Source: Kiloniellaceae bacterium (GTDB lineage: Bacteria; Pseudomonadota; Alphaproteobacteria; Kiloniellales; J153). From it: 64,000 nucleotides of DNA. Below the pieces are notes generated by a model, which did no database searches, was not told the DNA's origin, and saw only the letters and a list, made by a program, of their open reading frames with translations. Positions 24,137 to 37,535 of the stretch are shown here, one piece after another (position 1 is the stretch's first letter; every line of letters starts with the position of its first letter). The stretch lies in the NCBI GenBank assembly GCA_021776115.1, contig JAJFGN010000007.1, positions 62,001 to 126,000 of the forward strand, given 5' to 3'. The position numbers and the translations under genes were made by a program.

Positions 24137-24252
24137 CGGCCGCAAGTATAACAGCTCGGATTTGCCCCGTTGCGATCTGCCGGGCGACTCACGGCGCCAT
24201 CACGGCAAACTGACAAGCCAGGACAGGGTATTTGGGCTATGCTGATGGCATT

Positions 24253-25674
24253 ATGAACGTCACCGCACCGCATACCCTACCGGCCGGCGCTGAACCCGCC
24301 CGGCCCGAAGAGGCTAAACGCTCTTTATGGCGCCGGATGCGCGGTGAGGACGTTGAGCGACAGTTGCCGGAGCGCGTACGCGAGGCGATCCAGCGACAGG
24401 GGGACGCCACCGAACGGTTGATCGGTTGGATGCAGCTCGCCGTGGTTTCAATATTCGCGACGCTGTATGCCGTTGCGCCCTCGACCGCGCCCATCGGCGG
24501 CGACTTTCAACCGGTGCCTTGGGCGATCGGCGCCTACTTTCTGTTCACCCTGCTGCGCCTTTCCCTGGCCTACAAGATTAGCCTTCCCGGCTGGTTTTTG
24601 CTGGTGTCGATTCTGATCGACATGGGTCTATTGTTCGGCCTGATCTGGAGTTTCCATATCCAGTACATGCAACCGGCGTCGTTCTATCTGAAGGCGCCAA
24701 CCTTGTTGTATGTCTTCATCTTCATCGCCTTGCGCGCCCTGCGTTTCGAGGCGCGCTTCGTGATCGCGGCTGGGGTCGCAGCGGCCCTGGGCTGGCTTGG
24801 GCTGGTCTTCTACGTGATTTCAGTCGATCCCGGCGACAACATGATCACCCGCGACTACGTCGCGTACATGACATCCAACAGCGTCCTTCTGGGCGCCGAG
24901 TTCGACAAGATGGTGTCGATCCTGCTGGTTTCGCTGATCCTGGGGGCCGGGCTGATCAGAGGCCGGCGGCTATTGGTGCGTGCGGTCGCGGAAAGTGCGG
25001 CGGCGCAGGAGCTGTCGCGTTTCTTCGCACCGGAAATCGCCATGAAGATCCGTGGCTCCGACCGGCAGATCGCGGCCGGCAGCGGCGAGGCGCGCGACGC
25101 CGCGATTGTCAATTTCGACATGCGCGGCTTCACCCGCTATGCAGAAAGCCACCCGCCGGACCAGGTCATGGGCCTGCTTGGCGAGTATCAAAGGCTGATC
25201 GTGCCGATCATCCAAAAGCACGGCGGCAGTATCGACAAATTCCTGGGTGACGGCATCATGGCGACTTTCGGCGCGTCTTCGCCGTCCCATACCTACGCCG
25301 CGGACGCGGTGCGCGCACTTGAGGAGGCGATCGAGGCGGCCCAAACCTGGCAGGCTCGTAACGAGACGCAGGGCCTACCCGCGCCACAGGTCAACGCCGC
25401 GGCCGCCACCGGACGTATCGTCTTCGGGGCGGTCGGGGACGATACCCGGCTGGAGTACACCGTGATCGGCGACGCAGTGAACCTCTCCGCCAAGTTGGAG
25501 CAGTTCAACAAGCAGCTAAAGACGATGGCTGTGTGCGATGCGGCAACTTACGACCTGGCCCAGGCTCAGGGCTATGTCACCGGCGTGGCCTCGGCGGGCG
25601 CGCGGCGGCGGGTCGATCGGGCCCAGGTTCCCGGCGTCGGGCATCCGGTCGACGTGGTCGTTCTGGCATCCTAG
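24253..25674 (+). CDS. Membrane-bound class III adenylate cyclase
   Basis: The protein has 473 residues. About five or six membrane helices (residues ~60-240) precede a C-terminal class III cyclase domain. Metal-binding Asp289 lies in NFDMRGFTRYAES and Asp333 in DKFLGDGIMATFG. Lys329 in that loop is the residue expected for adenine recognition. The transition-state region LEYTVIGDAVNLSAKLEQ is intact. It should make cAMP at the membrane. It follows the MBL-fold gene. A cNMP-binding protein is encoded 10 kb further on at 36,032. A TTG at 24232 is an alternative start. Confidence 0.9.
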   Translation: MNVTAPHTLPAGAEPARPEEAKRSLWRRMRGEDVERQLPERVREAIQRQGDATERLIGWMQLAVVSIFATLYAVAPSTAPIGGDFQPVPWAIGAYFLFTLLRLSLAYKISLPGWFLLVSILIDMGLLFGLIWSFHIQYMQPASFYLKAPTLLYVFIFIALRALRFEARFVIAAGVAAALGWLGLVFYVISVDPGDNMITRDYVAYMTSNSVLLGAEFDKMVSILLVSLILGAGLIRGRRLLVRAVAESAAAQELSRFFAPEIAMKIRGSDRQIAAGSGEARDAAIVNFDMRGFTRYAESHPPDQVMGLLGEYQRLIVPIIQKHGGSIDKFLGDGIMATFGASSPSHTYAADAVRALEEAIEAAQTWQARNETQGLPAPQVNAAAATGRIVFGAVGDDTRLEYTVIGDAVNLSAKLEQFNKQLKTMAVCDAATYDLAQAQGYVTGVASAGARRRVDRAQVPGVGHPVDVVVLAS

Positions 25675-30461: not shown

Positions 30462-31748
30462 TCATTGCGCGGCCGCCTGAACCGAGTCAGCTCCGAAATA
30501 GGCTAGGAGAGTGTCAATCCCCACGCCCATCTCGAAGTGGGTGCGCACCCGGTGCGCGCCGGCGTCGCCGAGCTTTGCCCGGGTCTTGGGGTCGCGGATT
30601 AGACGATCCAGCGCGGCAGCGAGCGCCGCCGGATCGCCGGGTGGGATCAGACACCCGGTCGCCCCGTCCTCGATCAATTCGGGAATCGCGGAAACACGGG
30701 TCGAAAGGCACGCCAAGCCCTGACTTTGCGCCTCCATGAGCACGTTGGGCAGGCCGTCACGATCGCCATTTCCGGCGACCCGGCTCGCCAGAACGAAGAG
30801 ATCCGCGCGCCGGTACTCGCTCAGCACGCGCTCTTGCGGTTGCGCTCCAAGCCAATCTATCCGGGATGCGAGCCCTAAGTCTTGCGCCCGCGCCTTCATG
30901 GCTGCGCTCAAATCACCGGCCCCGATGTGGGTCAAATGCCAGTGCAGTTCCGCCGGTAGGCGCGCCAGCGCGGCGAGCAAGTCGTCGGTGCCCTTCTTTT
31001 CGACCAGGCGGCCGACCGATAGCAGGCGAACCGGACGCGTCGGATCGGCGCCGTCGTTGCCGGGGCCGTTCTTGGCGCGCGGCGTTTCTGGCGCGGCAAA
31101 ACGGCGAAAGTCGAGGCCGTGATAAACGAGCCGTACTTTGTCCGGATCCCCGGCCAGTGCGGCCAGATGATCGCGTCCGCTGGCGGTGCAGGTCACGACC
31201 CAGTCGGCATCCACCAGCTTCTCGCGCTTTTCCCACGCGGGCGTGGTCCAGATGTCCTTGGCGTGCGCCGAAACACACCAAGGCAAGCCGGTCATGAGTG
31301 CGGCATAGCGCGCGACGGAGGCGGGGGTGTGCAAGAAGTGGGCATAGAGCCGGCCGACCGAAGCCGGAAGCGCCGCCGCCAGCACACAAGCCTGCCCGAA
31401 GCGGCGCAGGCGATTGGCGCTTCGGTCCCGTGCGAGATCGCGCAAGAAAACACGCCACGCGCCCGGGTAACCGGGCAAGCGCCGGGCCCGACGCCAAGCC
31501 CGCCAGACCCGGCCCGGATCGTCTTTCAAGTACTCCGGCAAATAGGCGACCGGCGCTTCGATTTCGCGGTGGACAGGATGCGTCGCCGGATCGGTTGGGC
31601 GGCGCAGGGAATACAGGCGCAGACGTAAGCCGCGCCGCTCCAGGGCGTGGATCTCCTGTGCGATGAAGGTTTCCGATAGGCGTGGATAGCCCTTGAGGAC
31701 AACGGCGATTTCGCCGCCAGACAACGTATCTGAGTTACCTAAGATCAT
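30462..31748 (-). CDS. GT4-family glycosyltransferase
   Basis: The 428-residue protein has the colanic-acid/WcaL-like start VVLKGYPRLSETFIAQEIHAL and HAKDIWTTPAWEKREKL. The donor domain follows with RLLSVGRLVEKKGTDDLLAAL and GLPNVLMEAQSQGLACLSTRVSAIPELI. It probably adds one sugar in assembly of a surface polysaccharide or glycolipid. The first ~10 residues are uncertain. A 68-nt gap separates it from the MurG-like gene upstream. Confidence 0.86.
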   Translation of the reverse strand: MILGNSDTLSGGEIAVVLKGYPRLSETFIAQEIHALERRGLRLRLYSLRRPTDPATHPVHREIEAPVAYLPEYLKDDPGRVWRAWRRARRLPGYPGAWRVFLRDLARDRSANRLRRFGQACVLAAALPASVGRLYAHFLHTPASVARYAALMTGLPWCVSAHAKDIWTTPAWEKREKLVDADWVVTCTASGRDHLAALAGDPDKVRLVYHGLDFRRFAAPETPRAKNGPGNDGADPTRPVRLLSVGRLVEKKGTDDLLAALARLPAELHWHLTHIGAGDLSAAMKARAQDLGLASRIDWLGAQPQERVLSEYRRADLFVLASRVAGNGDRDGLPNVLMEAQSQGLACLSTRVSAIPELIEDGATGCLIPPGDPAALAAALDRLIRDPKTRAKLGDAGAHRVRTHFEMGVGIDTLLAYFGADSVQAAAQ

Positions 31749-31816: not shown

Positions 31817-33061
31817 TCAATCGCTACCCTGTTGCGCGGCAAGGCGCGGAACCAGGGGCGCGACCGCGAACCGGGTGTCGCCGCGATCCAACCATTGCTG
31901 GGCCAGCTTGATGACATTGGCGCGGCCATCCAGCAGACCGGGCACCACGACACTGGACGGGGCGGCCTGTTGCGGCAGGTTGCGCAAGGCCGTCGCCATG
32001 GTTCGTGGGTCGCGGACACCATCGTCGCTCAGCATCCGCACCAGGCCCAAATCCTGCGCCCGCGACGCCCGAATGTGCTGTTCCAAGCGCGGCGTGGTGC
32101 GCGGCACGACCAGGGCCGGCTTATCGAAGGACAAAACCTCGCAGAAGGTGTTGTAGCCGCCCATGCACACAACCCCCACGGCGCGGGCCATCAGGCTTTC
32201 GATATGCGCGTCGAAGGTGATGGCCTCCACATTAGGCAAATTGCTGGCGCGTTGCAGGAAGTCCGCCTGGTGCTGGGATCCCATAAAGGGACCGAGCACA
32301 ACCAGGGCCGGATAAGGCAAATTGGGATCGGTCTCGTAGGCCGATAACACCCAATCGATGATTTCCTCGCCGTCCCCGCCGCCGCCGACGGTTACCAGAA
32401 TGAAGGGGTCGGCGATTTTCTCAGGCACGAAGAGCGGTGCGGTTTCCGGCACATGGCGGTTCAGATAGCCGGTGAAGGTCGTCTTATGGCGCAAGGAATC
32501 GGGGACTCCCAGGCCCTCCAAAGGATCGCATATCTGCGGCAGGCCATAGACCCAAATGGAATCGTAGTAGGCGGTCAAAGCCGGGATCGCGTTCTTACGT
32601 TTCCATTCGCTCGCCAGCACGCCCGGATCGTCCATAACGTCGCGCAGGCCCAGTACGCAGGGCGTCCCACGCGACTTGAGCATGGCAAGGGTGCTTTTCA
32701 CCTCGCCGCGCAGGCCCAAGGGTTCCTTGTCGACCAGGAAAAGATCGGGATCGAAGATCTTGGCCGTATGCTCGACGATCGAACCGCGGATCGCGAGCGT
32801 ATCCTCGATATCGATGTGCAAATTGAGCGGCGTGTACTCGCCGTTGCGCAACTTGATGACACCGGGAATCCGCACGAAATCGACACGCGATCGAAAATCG
32901 AAACTGCCGATGATCGGCGAGCCCGAGAGGATCAGCACGGTGAGATTGCTGGTCGCGCCAACCAGGCTGTGCGCGATTTCGCGGCACCGCCGCAAATGTC
33001 CCAGGCCAAAGCTGTCGTGGCTATAGATAAGGACGCGCTTGTTCTTGCGGCCCGGTACCAT
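31817..33061 (-). CDS. MurG-like glycosyltransferase, first gene of the glycan operon
   Basis: The protein has 414 residues. RVLIYSHDSFGLGHLRRCREIA is a MurG-type N-terminus; TVGGGGDGEEIIDWVL and VCMGGYNTFCEVLSFDKPALVVP form the donor-binding part. It shares the fold and GGYNT motif with the gene at 27541-28713. The ATG at 33061 has a strong GGAGGGGGAA site; the open frame extends to 33133. It is divergent from the ABC-protein gene, with a 183-nt region between start codons. Confidence 0.85.
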   Translation of the reverse strand: MVPGRKNKRVLIYSHDSFGLGHLRRCREIAHSLVGATSNLTVLILSGSPIIGSFDFRSRVDFVRIPGVIKLRNGEYTPLNLHIDIEDTLAIRGSIVEHTAKIFDPDLFLVDKEPLGLRGEVKSTLAMLKSRGTPCVLGLRDVMDDPGVLASEWKRKNAIPALTAYYDSIWVYGLPQICDPLEGLGVPDSLRHKTTFTGYLNRHVPETAPLFVPEKIADPFILVTVGGGGDGEEIIDWVLSAYETDPNLPYPALVVLGPFMGSQHQADFLQRASNLPNVEAITFDAHIESLMARAVGVVCMGGYNTFCEVLSFDKPALVVPRTTPRLEQHIRASRAQDLGLVRMLSDDGVRDPRTMATALRNLPQQAAPSSVVVPGLLDGRANVIKLAQQWLDRGDTRFAVAPLVPRLAAQQGSD

Positions 33062-33227
33062 ACCGTTCCCCCTCCCCCCGTTTTTGAACCGCAGCCCCAT
33101 TTTGACGAACACTAGGGCACCCGGACCCGTCATAGCAAGTCCCGCACGGTCCGCGCGGCAATTCGGCCCAGGCGGGCCCGTTTACCCCCCGAACGCAATG
33201 GGATAAGGTCAGGCCGCTTTTCCGCGC

Positions 33228-33299
33228 GGCGGCGGCTGGACCCGATGGAGCGGCGACGGCTGGACCCGATGGAGCGGCGGCGACTGGATCCGATGGAAC
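33228..33299. repeat. Three tandem 24-bp repeats over the start of the ABC-protein gene
   Basis: Units 33228-33251, 33252-33275 and 33276-33299 follow GGCGGCGGCTGGACCCGATG plus GAGC. Unit 2 differs at one base and unit 3 at three. Each supplies an ATG (33245, 33269, 33293) in the same frame, and translation gives a repeated RRRLDPME octapeptide. Copy-number change would alter the N-terminus or the available start codons without a frameshift. Confidence 0.9.
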
Positions 33300-36010
33300 C
33301 GAATCTTTTCAAATATATCTGGCACCATTCGAGACGCGATCAGCTGGCGATCTTATTGCTCGTCGTCCTCTCCATGCCGTTTTATTTCCTGTCGCTCGAC
33401 CTGCCCAAAATGATCGTCAATCAGGGCATATTGGGCCAGGGGTTTCCCGATCCCACAGCCAACAAGCCGTTCCTTCCAATCGAGCTGCCGTTCGGTGAGT
33501 TCCTGACGGGCGCTCCGGTTACGCTGTTCGACGGCTTTTCCCTGCGGCAAGAGGAGTTTCTGCTGTCGCTGACCTTTTCGTATGTGATCCTTTACCTGAT
33601 CAATAGCGGGTTCAAGTACACGATTAATACGGGCAAGGGCCGCTTAGGTGAGCGGATGTTGCGGCGCTTGCGGTATGAACTGAGCGACCGGCTTCTGCGC
33701 TTTCCTATTCCGCATATGCGCCGCGTCAAACAAGCCGAAGTGGCGACCATGATCAAGGACGAGGTCGAACCGCTGGGCGGCTTTATCGGCGACGCCTTCG
33801 TTACGCCCGTTTTCCTGGGCGGACAGGCGATCACCGCGATAATCTTCATCCTGGTGCAGAACCACTGGCTCGGCATGGTAGCCGCCATAATTGTAGGCGT
33901 TCAGGCATACCTGGTGCCGAAAATGCGGGTGCCGATCCTGCGCTTGGGCCGACAAAGGCAGCTAACCGCCCGCCAATTGGCGGGACGCGTCGCCGAGGTG
34001 GTGGACGGCGCGGTCGAAATTCACTCGCACGACACCTCGAACCTTGAACGAGCGGACCTTGTCAGCCGCCTGGGCCGGATTTTCGATATTCGCTACGAGA
34101 TCTTTCAGCGCAAGTTCATGGTCAAATTCGTGAACAATTTTTTGGCGCAGTTGACGCCCTTCATCTTTTACGGAGGTGGCGGCATCTTGGCGATCCGCGG
34201 CCACCTGGATGTCGGCGCCTTGGTCGCGGTCATTTTCGCCTACAAGGATCTGCCCAGCCCGATCAAGGAGCTGATCGACTGGGAGCAACAACGGAACGAT
34301 GTCCAGATCAAATACGATCAAGTAATCGAGCAGTTTCAACCTTCGGAGATCTTGGATCCCGCGGTGCAGGACCCGGACCAGGATGCGAGCGAGCCTTTGG
34401 ATGGGCAAGTTACTCTTTCAGCGGTATCGCTGGCCGACGAGTCGGGAAATCGTCTGATCCAGGCGGTTAGCTTTTCCGTCGCCTGCAACGACCACATTGC
34501 GATATTCGGCTCCTCGGACTCGGGTAAGGATCACTTGGCGCTGGTTCTGGCGCGCCTGACGGAGCCGTCGTCGGGCAGCATCAGAGTCGGCGGGCGGGAC
34601 CTGACAAAGCTCCCACAATCGGTCACCGGGCGGCGCATCGGTTATCTGGGGCAGGATACTTATCTTTTCCCTCAATCGGTGCGTGAGAATCTTTTGTACG
34701 GCTTGCGCCACAAGCCGCTGCGTCAACCTACGGAAACGCCGGAGCGGCGCGCGCGCCGTAAAGCCTGGATCGCGGAAAGCCGGCGCGCGGGCAATCCGAT
34801 TTGGGACATCGAAGCCGATTGGACCGATTACGAGGCGGCCGGCGCCACGGGACCTGAAGATATTGACGATCGGGTCGTCGACGTCCTCACTTTGGTCGAG
34901 ATGGATGACGACGTTTACCGTTTTGGCCTTGGCGGCACGATCGACGCCGAAGCCCAGCCCGCGTTCGCCGAAGCCATCCTGCGGGCGCGGGCCGAGTTGC
35001 CCAAACGACTAGCCCAGGACAACGCGGAAAACCTGGTCGTGCGCTTCGACCCCGAATCCTACAACAAGAACGCGACCCTGGCGGAGAACCTGTTGTTCGG
35101 CACCCCGAGAAAGCAGGGGTACAAGCTGCGCGACCTCGCCCTTAACGAGCTGATGACGGACGTGCTGGATGAAATCGGCCTGTTGGATTCGACGGTCGAT
35201 ATGGGGGTCACCATTGCGCGAACCATGGTCGAGATCTTCGCGGATCTGCCGCCGGGCCATCCCTTCTTCGAGCAGTTCAGTTTCATTGACGCCGACGACA
35301 TGCCGGACTTTCGCAACTATGTCGCCAAGGTCGACAAACAAGGCATCGAAGCGCTCGGACCGTCGGATCGCCTGGCGCTGCGCCGTCTGCCCCTGAATTA
35401 CACCGAAGCCCGCCACCGTCTCGGCTTGATCGATGAAGCTATCGAGTCGCGGGCCGTGGCGGCGCGCAAATTGTTTGCGGAGCGGCTGACCAAACTGGAT
35501 CCGGAGGCGGTCGCGATCTATGACCCAGACGCCTACAATTCCGCCGCCTCCCTGCAGGACAATATCCTGTTCGGCCGTATCGCCTACGGCCAGGCCAAGG
35601 CGGAAGAGATCGTCGGGCGCGCCATGACCGATCTTTTGGACGCGCTGGGCCTGCGCAAGACCGTCGTCGAAGCCGGCCTGGATTTTCAAGTCGGCGTCGG
35701 CGGCAAACGCTTGAGCGCGGCACAACGCCAGAAACTCGGCCTCGCGCGCAACTTGTTGAAGCGGCCCGACCTCCTGATCGTGAATGACGGACTAGCGGTT
35801 ATGGATACCGCGACCCAGGACAAACTGCAGCGTCGCGTGCTCGAAAGACGCAAGGGCCGGGGCGTGATCTGGATGTTGCAGCGGCCCCACTCGTGTGAGC
35901 AATTCAGCCGTGTCCTGGTCATGCAGGATGGGCGCATCGTTGAACAAGGCAGTTTTGCCGACCTCAACAAACCGGGTTCGGCCTTGAGTGAATTTTTGGC
36001 CGCCGAGTAG
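33245..36010 (+). CDS. Unusual ABC transporter-like protein with an expanded, degenerate ATPase domain
   Basis: The protein has 921 residues, about 300 more than a normal half-transporter. Residues ~20-370 form an exporter-type membrane domain (LAILLLVVLSMPFYFLSL; FLLSLTFSYVILYLIN; ITAIIFILVQNHWLGMVAAI; PFIFYGGGGILAIRG). The ATPase domain starts near 397. Its Walker A is GSSDSGKD (422-429), with Asp in place of the usual Ser/Thr. A Q-loop (Gln470) with YLFPQSVRENLLYG follows. Two further copies of that segment appear at 606 (YNKNATLAENLLFG) and 764 (YNSAASLQDNILFG). The signature is LSAAQRQK (823), Walker B is LLIVND (843-848; Asn for Asp, Asp for Glu), and the H-loop reads MLQRPHSC (His882 displaced). 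It ends with the normal VLVMQDGRIVEQGSFADL. The start is uncertain among three repeat-borne ATGs. Confidence 0.85.
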   Translation: MERRRLDPMERRRLDPMEPNLFKYIWHHSRRDQLAILLLVVLSMPFYFLSLDLPKMIVNQGILGQGFPDPTANKPFLPIELPFGEFLTGAPVTLFDGFSLRQEEFLLSLTFSYVILYLINSGFKYTINTGKGRLGERMLRRLRYELSDRLLRFPIPHMRRVKQAEVATMIKDEVEPLGGFIGDAFVTPVFLGGQAITAIIFILVQNHWLGMVAAIIVGVQAYLVPKMRVPILRLGRQRQLTARQLAGRVAEVVDGAVEIHSHDTSNLERADLVSRLGRIFDIRYEIFQRKFMVKFVNNFLAQLTPFIFYGGGGILAIRGHLDVGALVAVIFAYKDLPSPIKELIDWEQQRNDVQIKYDQVIEQFQPSEILDPAVQDPDQDASEPLDGQVTLSAVSLADESGNRLIQAVSFSVACNDHIAIFGSSDSGKDHLALVLARLTEPSSGSIRVGGRDLTKLPQSVTGRRIGYLGQDTYLFPQSVRENLLYGLRHKPLRQPTETPERRARRKAWIAESRRAGNPIWDIEADWTDYEAAGATGPEDIDDRVVDVLTLVEMDDDVYRFGLGGTIDAEAQPAFAEAILRARAELPKRLAQDNAENLVVRFDPESYNKNATLAENLLFGTPRKQGYKLRDLALNELMTDVLDEIGLLDSTVDMGVTIARTMVEIFADLPPGHPFFEQFSFIDADDMPDFRNYVAKVDKQGIEALGPSDRLALRRLPLNYTEARHRLGLIDEAIESRAVAARKLFAERLTKLDPEAVAIYDPDAYNSAASLQDNILFGRIAYGQAKAEEIVGRAMTDLLDALGLRKTVVEAGLDFQVGVGGKRLSAAQRQKLGLARNLLKRPDLLIVNDGLAVMDTATQDKLQRRVLERRKGRGVIWMLQRPHSCEQFSRVLVMQDGRIVEQGSFADLNKPGSALSEFLAAE

Positions 36011-36031: not shown

Positions 36032-36481
36032 ATGAGCATAGACGAGGAAGTGGAGGTCTTACGTAAGATTCCACTGTTCGCAAACATCGAACCGGCGAAG
36101 CTGAAGCTCATGTGTTTCGCCAGTCAGCGGATGACCTTCAAGTCGGGACAGACGCTCTGTGGCCAGGGCGATGCCGGTGACTCCGCTTTCATCATCCTCG
36201 AGGGCGAGGCCGATGTGGTAATCGAAAACGATGGCCCTCTGGTGGTTGCGCAGTTCGGCAAGAACGACATTATCGGCGAGATCGCGATTCTGTGCGATGT
36301 ACCGCGCACGGCCAGCGTTATCGCGACCACAGAATTGACCGCCCTGGAAATCACCAAGGACCTGTTCTTTCGCATGGTCACGGACTTCCCCGAAATGGGC
36401 GTCGAGGTCATGCGGGTCCTGGCGCACCGTCTGGAACATACGACGGCTCTGTTACTAGCGGCGCGCCACGGTGCGAAGTGA
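36032..36481 (+). CDS. Stand-alone cyclic nucleotide-binding domain protein
   Basis: The protein has 149 residues and is a single cNMP-binding domain, with no helix-turn-helix or enzyme domain. The beta-barrel shows MTFKSGQTLCGQGDAGDSAFIILEGEADV. The phosphate-binding cassette is GEIAILCDVPRTASV, with Glu83 and Arg92 both present, so cAMP/cGMP binding looks possible. It lies 21 nt after the ABC-protein stop and overlaps the open frame of the next gene, so it is in one operon. It may act as a sensor subunit for the ABC protein; that is inference. Confidence 0.9.
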   Translation: MSIDEEVEVLRKIPLFANIEPAKLKLMCFASQRMTFKSGQTLCGQGDAGDSAFIILEGEADVVIENDGPLVVAQFGKNDIIGEIAILCDVPRTASVIATTELTALEITKDLFFRMVTDFPEMGVEVMRVLAHRLEHTTALLLAARHGAK

Positions 36482-37046: not shown

Positions 37047-37535
37047 ATGAGCCGCTTGGATAGCGTGATCCGCCGCTTGCAGGCGCAGCGTGCCTGCCTC
37101 GACCTCGCGGCGGCGCTCATCGCAAATCTACCGGGCCCGGTCCTGGAATTCGGCTTGGGCCAAGGCCGCACCTTTGATCACTTGCGCCGGATTTGCCCAA
37201 CGCGCGAGATCTTCGTTTTCGAGCGCGAGGTCGCGGCATCGGCGGAATGCGTGCCCGATAGCGACCGCTTAATCCTCGGCGATATCCGAAACACCTTAAC
37301 ACCGGCCGCCGGGCGCTTCGCGCGCACGGTACCCCTGGTACATAGCGATATCGGCACGGGTGATACGCGCCTAAACGCGGCGTTAGCCGGTTGCGTCTCG
37401 GCCCACCTTCCGGAGCTGTTATGTACGGGCGGAATCGTGGTGTCCGACCAGGACCTGGCGTATCCCGGCACGGTGGCGATCGATCTTCCCAAAGGGGTTC
37501 GCCCCGGGCGCTACTTCATGTACCGGGCCGGATAG
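37047..37535 (+). CDS. Small class I SAM-dependent methyltransferase, paralog 2
   Basis: The protein has 162 residues, clearly a paralog of the preceding gene: MSRLD..IRRL.AQRACL.LAA, PVLEFGLGQGRTFDHLRR, TREIFVFEREVAAS, HSDIGTGDTRLN, and the C-terminal GVRPGRYFMYR versus GVYFLYRQM. It starts 15 nt after paralog 1 and ends the ABC/cNMP operon. The pair arose by tandem duplication and has diverged well below identity. The substrate is unknown. Confidence 0.82.
   Translation: MSRLDSVIRRLQAQRACLDLAAALIANLPGPVLEFGLGQGRTFDHLRRICPTREIFVFEREVAASAECVPDSDRLILGDIRNTLTPAAGRFARTVPLVHSDIGTGDTRLNAALAGCVSAHLPELLCTGGIVVSDQDLAYPGTVAIDLPKGVRPGRYFMYRAG

Follow-up and report, generated by a model that had tools for sequence, protein, structure and literature searches.

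The helical subdomains of ordinary ATP-binding cassette (ABC) exporters touch the membrane domain at its coupling helices. In the ABCC channel CFTR and channel regulator SUR, the exporter fold has been repurposed from pumping; both have a degenerate ATP site, and ATP binding is kept and used. HetC, a cyanobacterial ABC exporter with a C39 peptidase, requires its N-terminal cyclic-nucleotide-binding (CNB) domain for function and has an ATPase residue that is essential in vivo, as described in the available text of PMC10986499. Here we describe an exporter-like gene in a 64,000-nucleotide stretch of a Kiloniellaceae bacterium (GCA_021776115.1, contig JAJFGN010000007.1, positions 62,001 to 126,000), referred to below as the window. 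Its product has a predicted complete nucleotide-binding domain (NBD) with degenerate catalytic motifs and about 300 surplus residues, and a CNB protein is encoded directly downstream. On balance, we lean towards reading it as a pseudo-ATPase ABC protein of the exporter (type IV) fold that is gated by a cyclic-nucleotide-sensing subunit, perhaps in connection with glycan genes.

The gene (33245..36010, + strand, as are all parts of it given below) encodes a putative pseudo-ATPase, an exporter-like protein of 921 amino acids (aa) as called. Pfam matched ABC_tran at 63.5 bits, split into two stretches, and ABC_membrane at a borderline 27.5 bits, just below its cut-off of 28; the latter scored 86.9 and 71 in the relatives L136 and L151. 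The annotated start is ambiguous because an imperfect 24-base tandem repeat round the start codon (33200-33310) encodes MERRRLDP twice before the conserved start MEPNLF. The alignment of relatives begins at M17 (base 33293), which on sequence grounds is probably the true start and gives a protein of 905 aa. An exporter membrane domain (about aa 30-360, 33332..34324, boundaries approximate) and an NBD stand in one chain as in type IV exporters, and the structural model aligns over both, but the motif set of that class (GKS/T in Walker A, DE in Walker B, the H-loop His and LSGGQ) is replaced by GKD, ND, Q and LSAAQ. Walker A (aa 422-429, 34508..34531) reads GSSDSGKD, with Asp in place of Ser/Thr, and Walker B (aa 843-848, 35771..35788) reads LLIVND, with Asn847 at the Mg-binding Asp and Asp848 at the catalytic Glu. 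The H-loop column (aa 879, 35879..35881) holds Gln, and a His is found three residues downstream. The open reading frame, its length, the motif positions and the normal exporter membrane domain had been put forward by a first-pass annotation made from the sequence alone, as had the altered Walker A, Walker B and displaced H-loop His, and all of these held on re-reading.

The surplus of about 300 residues consists of repeated Q-loop and helical-subdomain segments. Copy 1 (about aa 462-575, 34628..34969) comprises the canonical Q-loop strand with ENLLYG, followed by a diverged helical segment; copy 2 (about aa 576-735, 34970..35449) carries NATLAENLLFG and the family-specific stretch ADLPPGHPFFEQFSFI, and appears as an extra helical subdomain; copy 3 (about aa 736-850, 35450..35794) runs from AASLQDNILFG via the signature-like LSAAQRQK to Walker B and corresponds to the canonical helical subdomain. 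With profiles built from 57 relatives, hhalign paired copies 2 and 3 at 98.1-98.3% (E 8.6e-14 to 2.7e-14, 78 columns, 33% identity), rising to 98.6% (E 8.4e-16) with 85 rows. Copy 1 matched copy 3 at 93.8% with 85 rows (E 1.7e-7, 56 columns), falling to 28.3% with 57 rows, or 13.2% when a longer segment was used; against copy 2 it reached 66.8% and, with the longer segment, 56.5% (57 rows). When membrane-domain or C-terminal segments were paired as controls, scores stayed at or below 2.0% (57 rows) and 1.5% (85 rows). Because the scores are strong for copies 2 and 3, depend on the rows used for copy 1 and are low for the controls, the sequence profiles make copies 2 and 3 a firm repeat pair and copy 1 a probable third, more distant copy.

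A profile of seven NBDs with intact motifs from the organism's own genome served as the canonical reference. The core plus copy 1 matched it at 99.8% and copy 3 at 99.1% (107 columns, from the Q-loop strand to Walker B), while copy 2 reached 48.2%; within the window protein, the core segment, into which the copy 1 Q-loop and ENLLYG fall, matched copy 2 at 27.5%. A simple triplication is disfavoured by the tails of copy 1 (aa 505-600) and copy 2, which matched the canonical profile at 0.1% each, and by the tail of copy 1 matching copy 3 at only 45.7%. Overlapping segments led us to discard higher values: 95.7% between copies 1 and 2, 96.2% between the copy 1 tail and copy 2, and 82.9% between the copy 2 tail and copy 3. 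The order along the chain is thus better given as the core, the Q-loop from copy 1, copy 2 as an extra helical subdomain, copy 3 as the canonical one with its signature-like motif, and the Walker B half. The first-pass annotation had proposed a triplicated Q-loop-to-signature segment and an internal repeat that profile-profile self-alignment should recover. Such a repeat was recovered with significance for copies 2 and 3 (98%, E about 1e-14), the third copy is probable, and one extra helical subdomain describes the arrangement better than three equal repeats.

An AlphaFold2 model of the 905-aa protein had a mean predicted local distance difference test (pLDDT) score of 84.9 and a predicted template modelling score of 0.78, with the NBD and the insert mostly near 90 in pLDDT. 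The model NBD superposed on the ComA NBD (3vx4) with Z 28.7 and a root-mean-square deviation (rmsd) of 1.8 over 239 of 239 residues, many other exporters tying with it. This superposition spans model residues 367 to 903, therefore describing a complete ABC domain from which about 300 residues are looped out, and the overlength noted at first pass is accordingly real in the model as well. Folded alone (290 aa, pLDDT 87.6), the insert returned only ABC NBDs in the first 16 rows of a second structural comparison (Z 4.6-6.2), with unrelated folds at Z 3.3 and below. Its best match was CFTR NBD1 (Z 6.2, rmsd 2.3, 72 residues), placing model residues 119-261 (aa 604-746 of the window protein) on CFTR 494-565, a match that we read as the Q-loop-to-signature stretch in the model. 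An unrelated fused domain was rejected for copy 2 on the sequence repeats and the fold. On the question raised in the first-pass annotation, whether the copies pack as repeated helical subdomains, copy 2 at a modest Z looks like such a subdomain, added to an otherwise complete ABC fold; aa 485-603 were hardly covered by the comparison of the insert alone.

Loss of the catalytic motifs extends throughout the family. Residues were counted on 96 family rows (one near-duplicate pair left in), the joint count of five catalytic residues used 108 rows (12 proteins entered twice), and conservation percentiles refer to column information in 85 rows. The Walker A Lys (Lys428 column) occurs in 52 of the 96 rows and is accompanied by Ser/Thr in five; the Walker B Asp occurs in 17, the Glu in 35, the H-loop His in 10 and the Q-loop Gln in 23, and no row has the SGGQ signature. 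Lys, Ser/Thr, Asp and Glu are found together in three rows, all from the lineage f60. None of the 108 rows holds all five catalytic residues, against all three canonical exporters of the own genome; in the control proteins L009 and L010, the motif patterns failed to pick up Walker A and the H-loop, respectively. The percentiles are the 5th for the H-loop column, the 21st for the catalytic Glu, the 25th for the Q-loop Gln, the 45th for the Walker Lys and the 60th for the Walker B Asp column, in which most rows have Asn. The insert, in contrast, has residues that are invariant (R582, N615, N773 and G777, 96 of 96 rows) or nearly so (F618 in 95, G654 in 93), and, among the protein's regions, mean conservation is highest in the membrane domain. 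In family f46 (L140, L143-L146, L208), the signature and Walker B have been lost and the ENxLFG repeats kept.

Counting the own genome each time, 59 of 98 near genomes carry the insert, as do 132 of 385 in the class (one match, G744, being weak at E 4.5e-4) and 31 of 398 in the phylum; among the phylum matches listed, all belong to the window's class. Two genomes of the organism's own family (G002 and G008) have neither insert nor partner. A frameshift in this one genome, allowed for at first pass, is ruled out by this wide retention. None of the matches listed in the 59 near genomes and 132 class genomes contains a stop codon, and, measured against two relatives of the same genus, the ratio of nonsynonymous to synonymous substitution (dN/dS) lies at 0.05-0.25 in every region where dS is finite, although dS is high. 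Purifying selection and the invariant insert residues, set against the poorly conserved catalytic columns, indicate from sequence that the protein is maintained while its ATPase chemistry can drift largely unconstrained. The first-pass annotation had left open whether ATPase activity was lost or altered; motif loss holds family-wide, and loss is the likelier of the two because the catalytic positions vary so widely.

The full protein also matched 334 plasmid records, 262 over at least 80% of its length and 72 below that, and 224 of the records are from Rhizobium or Sinorhizobium. Among 60 listed plasmid rows, 13 from the Roseobacter group match the membrane domain alone, for example the separate Ruegeria pomeroyi protein SPO_RS21695. 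On the R. pomeroyi megaplasmid, a membrane-domain relative (L154:5758-6996) whose length leaves no room for an ATPase domain lies beside copper-resistance genes, and similar membrane-only matches occur on Phaeobacter, Sulfitobacter and Pseudosulfitobacter plasmids. Some family records (e.g., L078, L081, L087) are labelled Betaproteobacteria.

The main clue to the function of the ABC protein, absent from the first-pass annotation, is a constant cyclic-nucleotide-binding partner or fused domain. In the window this is a 149-aa single-domain protein (36032..36481, + strand; PF00027, E 4.5e-19) with the phosphate-binding cassette GEIAILCDVPRTA. A scan of the genome collection confirmed 480 of 524 candidate stretches, 80 of which were kept for locus counts, using our own open reading frame calling and clustering. 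The partner gene lies directly downstream of the ABC gene in 77 of the 80 loci at a median offset of 24 bases, and none was called in the other three (L093, L094, L108). Among the 98 genomes (own included), the partner occurs in 59 at E ≤1e-25, the insert in 59 and both in 58; this cut-off was chosen after the results had been seen, and at 1e-12 the partner occurs in 62 genomes, 58 of them with the insert. At E ≤1e-25 the exceptions are G085, an 86% complete genome with the partner only, and G082, in which the domain is fused and divergent; the partner copy of G038 has a stop within the match.

The CNB domain is separate in Sinorhizobium meliloti and Rhizobium leguminosarum and fused in Azospirillum oryzae, with the 1074-aa Azospirillum fusion matching PF00027 at E 4.4e-13. 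Of 20 divergent loci, 10 have it fused to the C-terminus of the ABC protein and nine have it as a separate adjacent gene, and in one it was not found; these loci were chosen by hand and favour long open frames, such that 10 of 20 is not a frequency. Eleven fused rows formed one group in a 45-row tree, with support of 93/94 within the family (the 100/100 value applies against the outgroup only) and several long branches, a grouping that fits a single fusion or fission. The partner has both the PF00027 match and the Gly, Glu and Arg of the phosphate-binding cassette; among 83 rows, Gly and Arg are present in all and Glu in 76, with Asp in the other seven. From these residues it looks able to bind a cyclic nucleotide. 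The own genome has nine class III cyclase matches, one of them in the window as an adenylate/guanylate cyclase domain protein (24232-25674) about 8 kb upstream of the ABC gene.

Several neighbouring genes recur among the 80 loci. Upstream on the - strand lie a divergent GT28-C-type glycosyltransferase (31817..33133, neighbour in 56 loci) and a GT4-type glycosyltransferase (30462..31748, cluster 2, 59 loci). Downstream on the + strand are two S-adenosylmethionine (SAM) methyltransferases of PF12692 (36471..37031, neighbour in 46 loci, and 37047..37535), a tandem pair that possibly arose by local duplication. An importer-type ABC ATPase cluster is near the family gene in 44 loci, these ATPases being of Opp/Dpp type as read from motifs and annotation. 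Glycosyltransferases and importer again stand beside the family gene in R. leguminosarum and R. johnstonii, and the linkage recurs from Kiloniellales to Rhizobium (L043-L122 neighbourhoods, L152, L155). The tag SMb20813, guessed for S. meliloti, is named as an msbA homolog in the available text of PMC10945364; it could not be linked to the pSymB locus (L151), the record of which is unannotated there.

The reading as a gated pseudo-ATPase draws on the predicted fold, the duplication, the motif loss, purifying selection, the linkage and fusion of the partner and the conserved pocket residues, all taken from sequence. The NBD would have kept its fold and lost the residues for hydrolysis, leaving a vestigial ATP engine, while duplication of the Q-loop and helical-subdomain segment would have set at least one extra helical subdomain upon it. 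The dedicated CNB protein, encoded separately in most loci and as a C-terminal domain in one group, may form a physical complex with the ABC protein as a constitutive subunit. Binding of a nucleotide, cyclic AMP (cAMP) or cyclic GMP to judge by the type of pocket, could then move the enlarged helical subdomains, and their movement could open, close or tilt a homodimeric exporter-type fold. The membrane part would act as a gated carrier, flippase, channel or regulator, its cargo perhaps a glycan or glycolipid made by the neighbouring glycosyltransferases and methyltransferases. More tentatively, and with distinctly less confidence, the protein might be a cyclic-nucleotide-gated, ATP-independent channel, carrier or flippase of the ABC fold, in which the duplicated helical subdomain is a new transmission element replacing the ATP switch. 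A conserved ATP engine is what defines ABC transporters; in this family it has decayed, and the added helical subdomain and cyclic-nucleotide sensor have been kept. The use of an ABC fold without ATP turnover can be put to the test in this family, which may also tie bacterial cyclic-nucleotide signalling straight to membrane transport.

A number of observations weigh against this. Conservation is still high at the Walker A glycines (93rd-94th percentile) and at the D-loop Asp (84th), the Lys persists in 52 of 96 rows, and the three f60 rows, from one lineage, retain Lys, Ser, Asp and Glu. Nucleotide may consequently still bind to the NBD in at least part of the family. The fused lineage f60 (L136, L137, L139/L203), which lacks the H-loop His and SGGQ, is possibly still ATP-binding, judging from its retained residues. 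The Z of 6.2 for the insert alone is modest, helical models reaching such values by chance, and none of 152 Foldseek matches of the insert alone had E ≤0.001. The divergent locus L208 (f46) had no partner found nearby, and some of the 80 loci are without glycosyltransferase neighbours. CNB domains may also take other ligands, that of HetC having bound ppGpp and not cAMP in the available text of PMC10986499.

Conserved Walker A glycines and D-loop Asp, together with purifying selection on the whole domain and, in the window's own lineage, the retention of K428 and a signature-like LSxxQ, could instead point to an active, atypical exporter that binds ATP, hydrolyses it slowly with altered residues and uses the extra subdomain as a regulatory lid. 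The catalytic columns of a working ATPase would, however, be expected near the top of the conservation range rather than at the 5th to 60th percentile, and with the full set of five residues in none of 108 rows we judge this improbable. Somewhat better placed, albeit still unlikely, is a heterodimeric exporter of the TAP or TmrAB kind, to which the protein would contribute the degenerate half, paired with an ATPase-competent half encoded elsewhere and merely modulated by the cyclic-nucleotide protein. Exporter heterodimers with one degenerate site are common, and several exporters of the own genome have intact motifs. Yet the sequence fetched around the 80 loci, with flanks of up to 10 kb and less on small contigs, contained no second half-exporter: extra profile matches there start at profile position 371 or later and so cover the ATPase domain only. 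The 20 divergent loci contain one possible case (L205). Moreover, Walker A/B and the signature, which belong to both halves of an ATP site, decay here in one chain.

The membrane domain might also be no transporter but an anchor or sensor platform relaying a cyclic-nucleotide signal, for example to the neighbouring glycosyltransferases. Those neighbours, the leading mean conservation of the membrane domain, the 72 plasmid records with partial coverage and the 13 membrane-only rows would all suit such a role, but conservation of this domain fits transport equally well and the neighbours vary, leaving the proposal rather unlikely too. A sequencing or frameshift artefact or decaying pseudogene, for which nothing speaks beyond the odd motifs, was rejected and has a negligible chance of being correct, given that many genomes share the insert, the listed matches are free of stops and dN/dS is low wherever dS is finite.

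Literature searches, outside whose reach lay supplements and most subscription papers, returned no published description of an ABC family with this layout, in keeping with the first-pass annotation. The exporter fold and CNB-containing exporters are already known; it is the combination, as read from sequence, of a duplicated helical subdomain, a lost catalytic set and a fixed cyclic-nucleotide partner for which no description was found. Type IV exporters (MsbA, TM287/288, the ComA NBD) have the same membrane domain and NBD fold, but the family described here differs in its approximately 300 surplus residues with a second helical subdomain, its lost catalytic residues and its fixed partner. CFTR and SUR resemble it in joining an exporter fold to a degenerate ATP site; to our knowledge, neither has an extra helical subdomain or a CNB subunit. 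The MlaFB ATPase is active, unlike that proposed here. A small cytoplasmic protein regulates the ABC complex in MlaFB as well, although the fold of that regulator is a different one (STAS), according to the available text of PMC7367683. HetC, as far as the available text of PMC10986499 describes it, shares the association of a CNB domain with an exporter; a Pfam scan of the 921-aa protein found neither an N-terminal CNB domain nor a C39 peptidase domain, and in this family the CNB domain is instead a separate gene or C-terminal, alongside an NBD that has lost its catalytic set.

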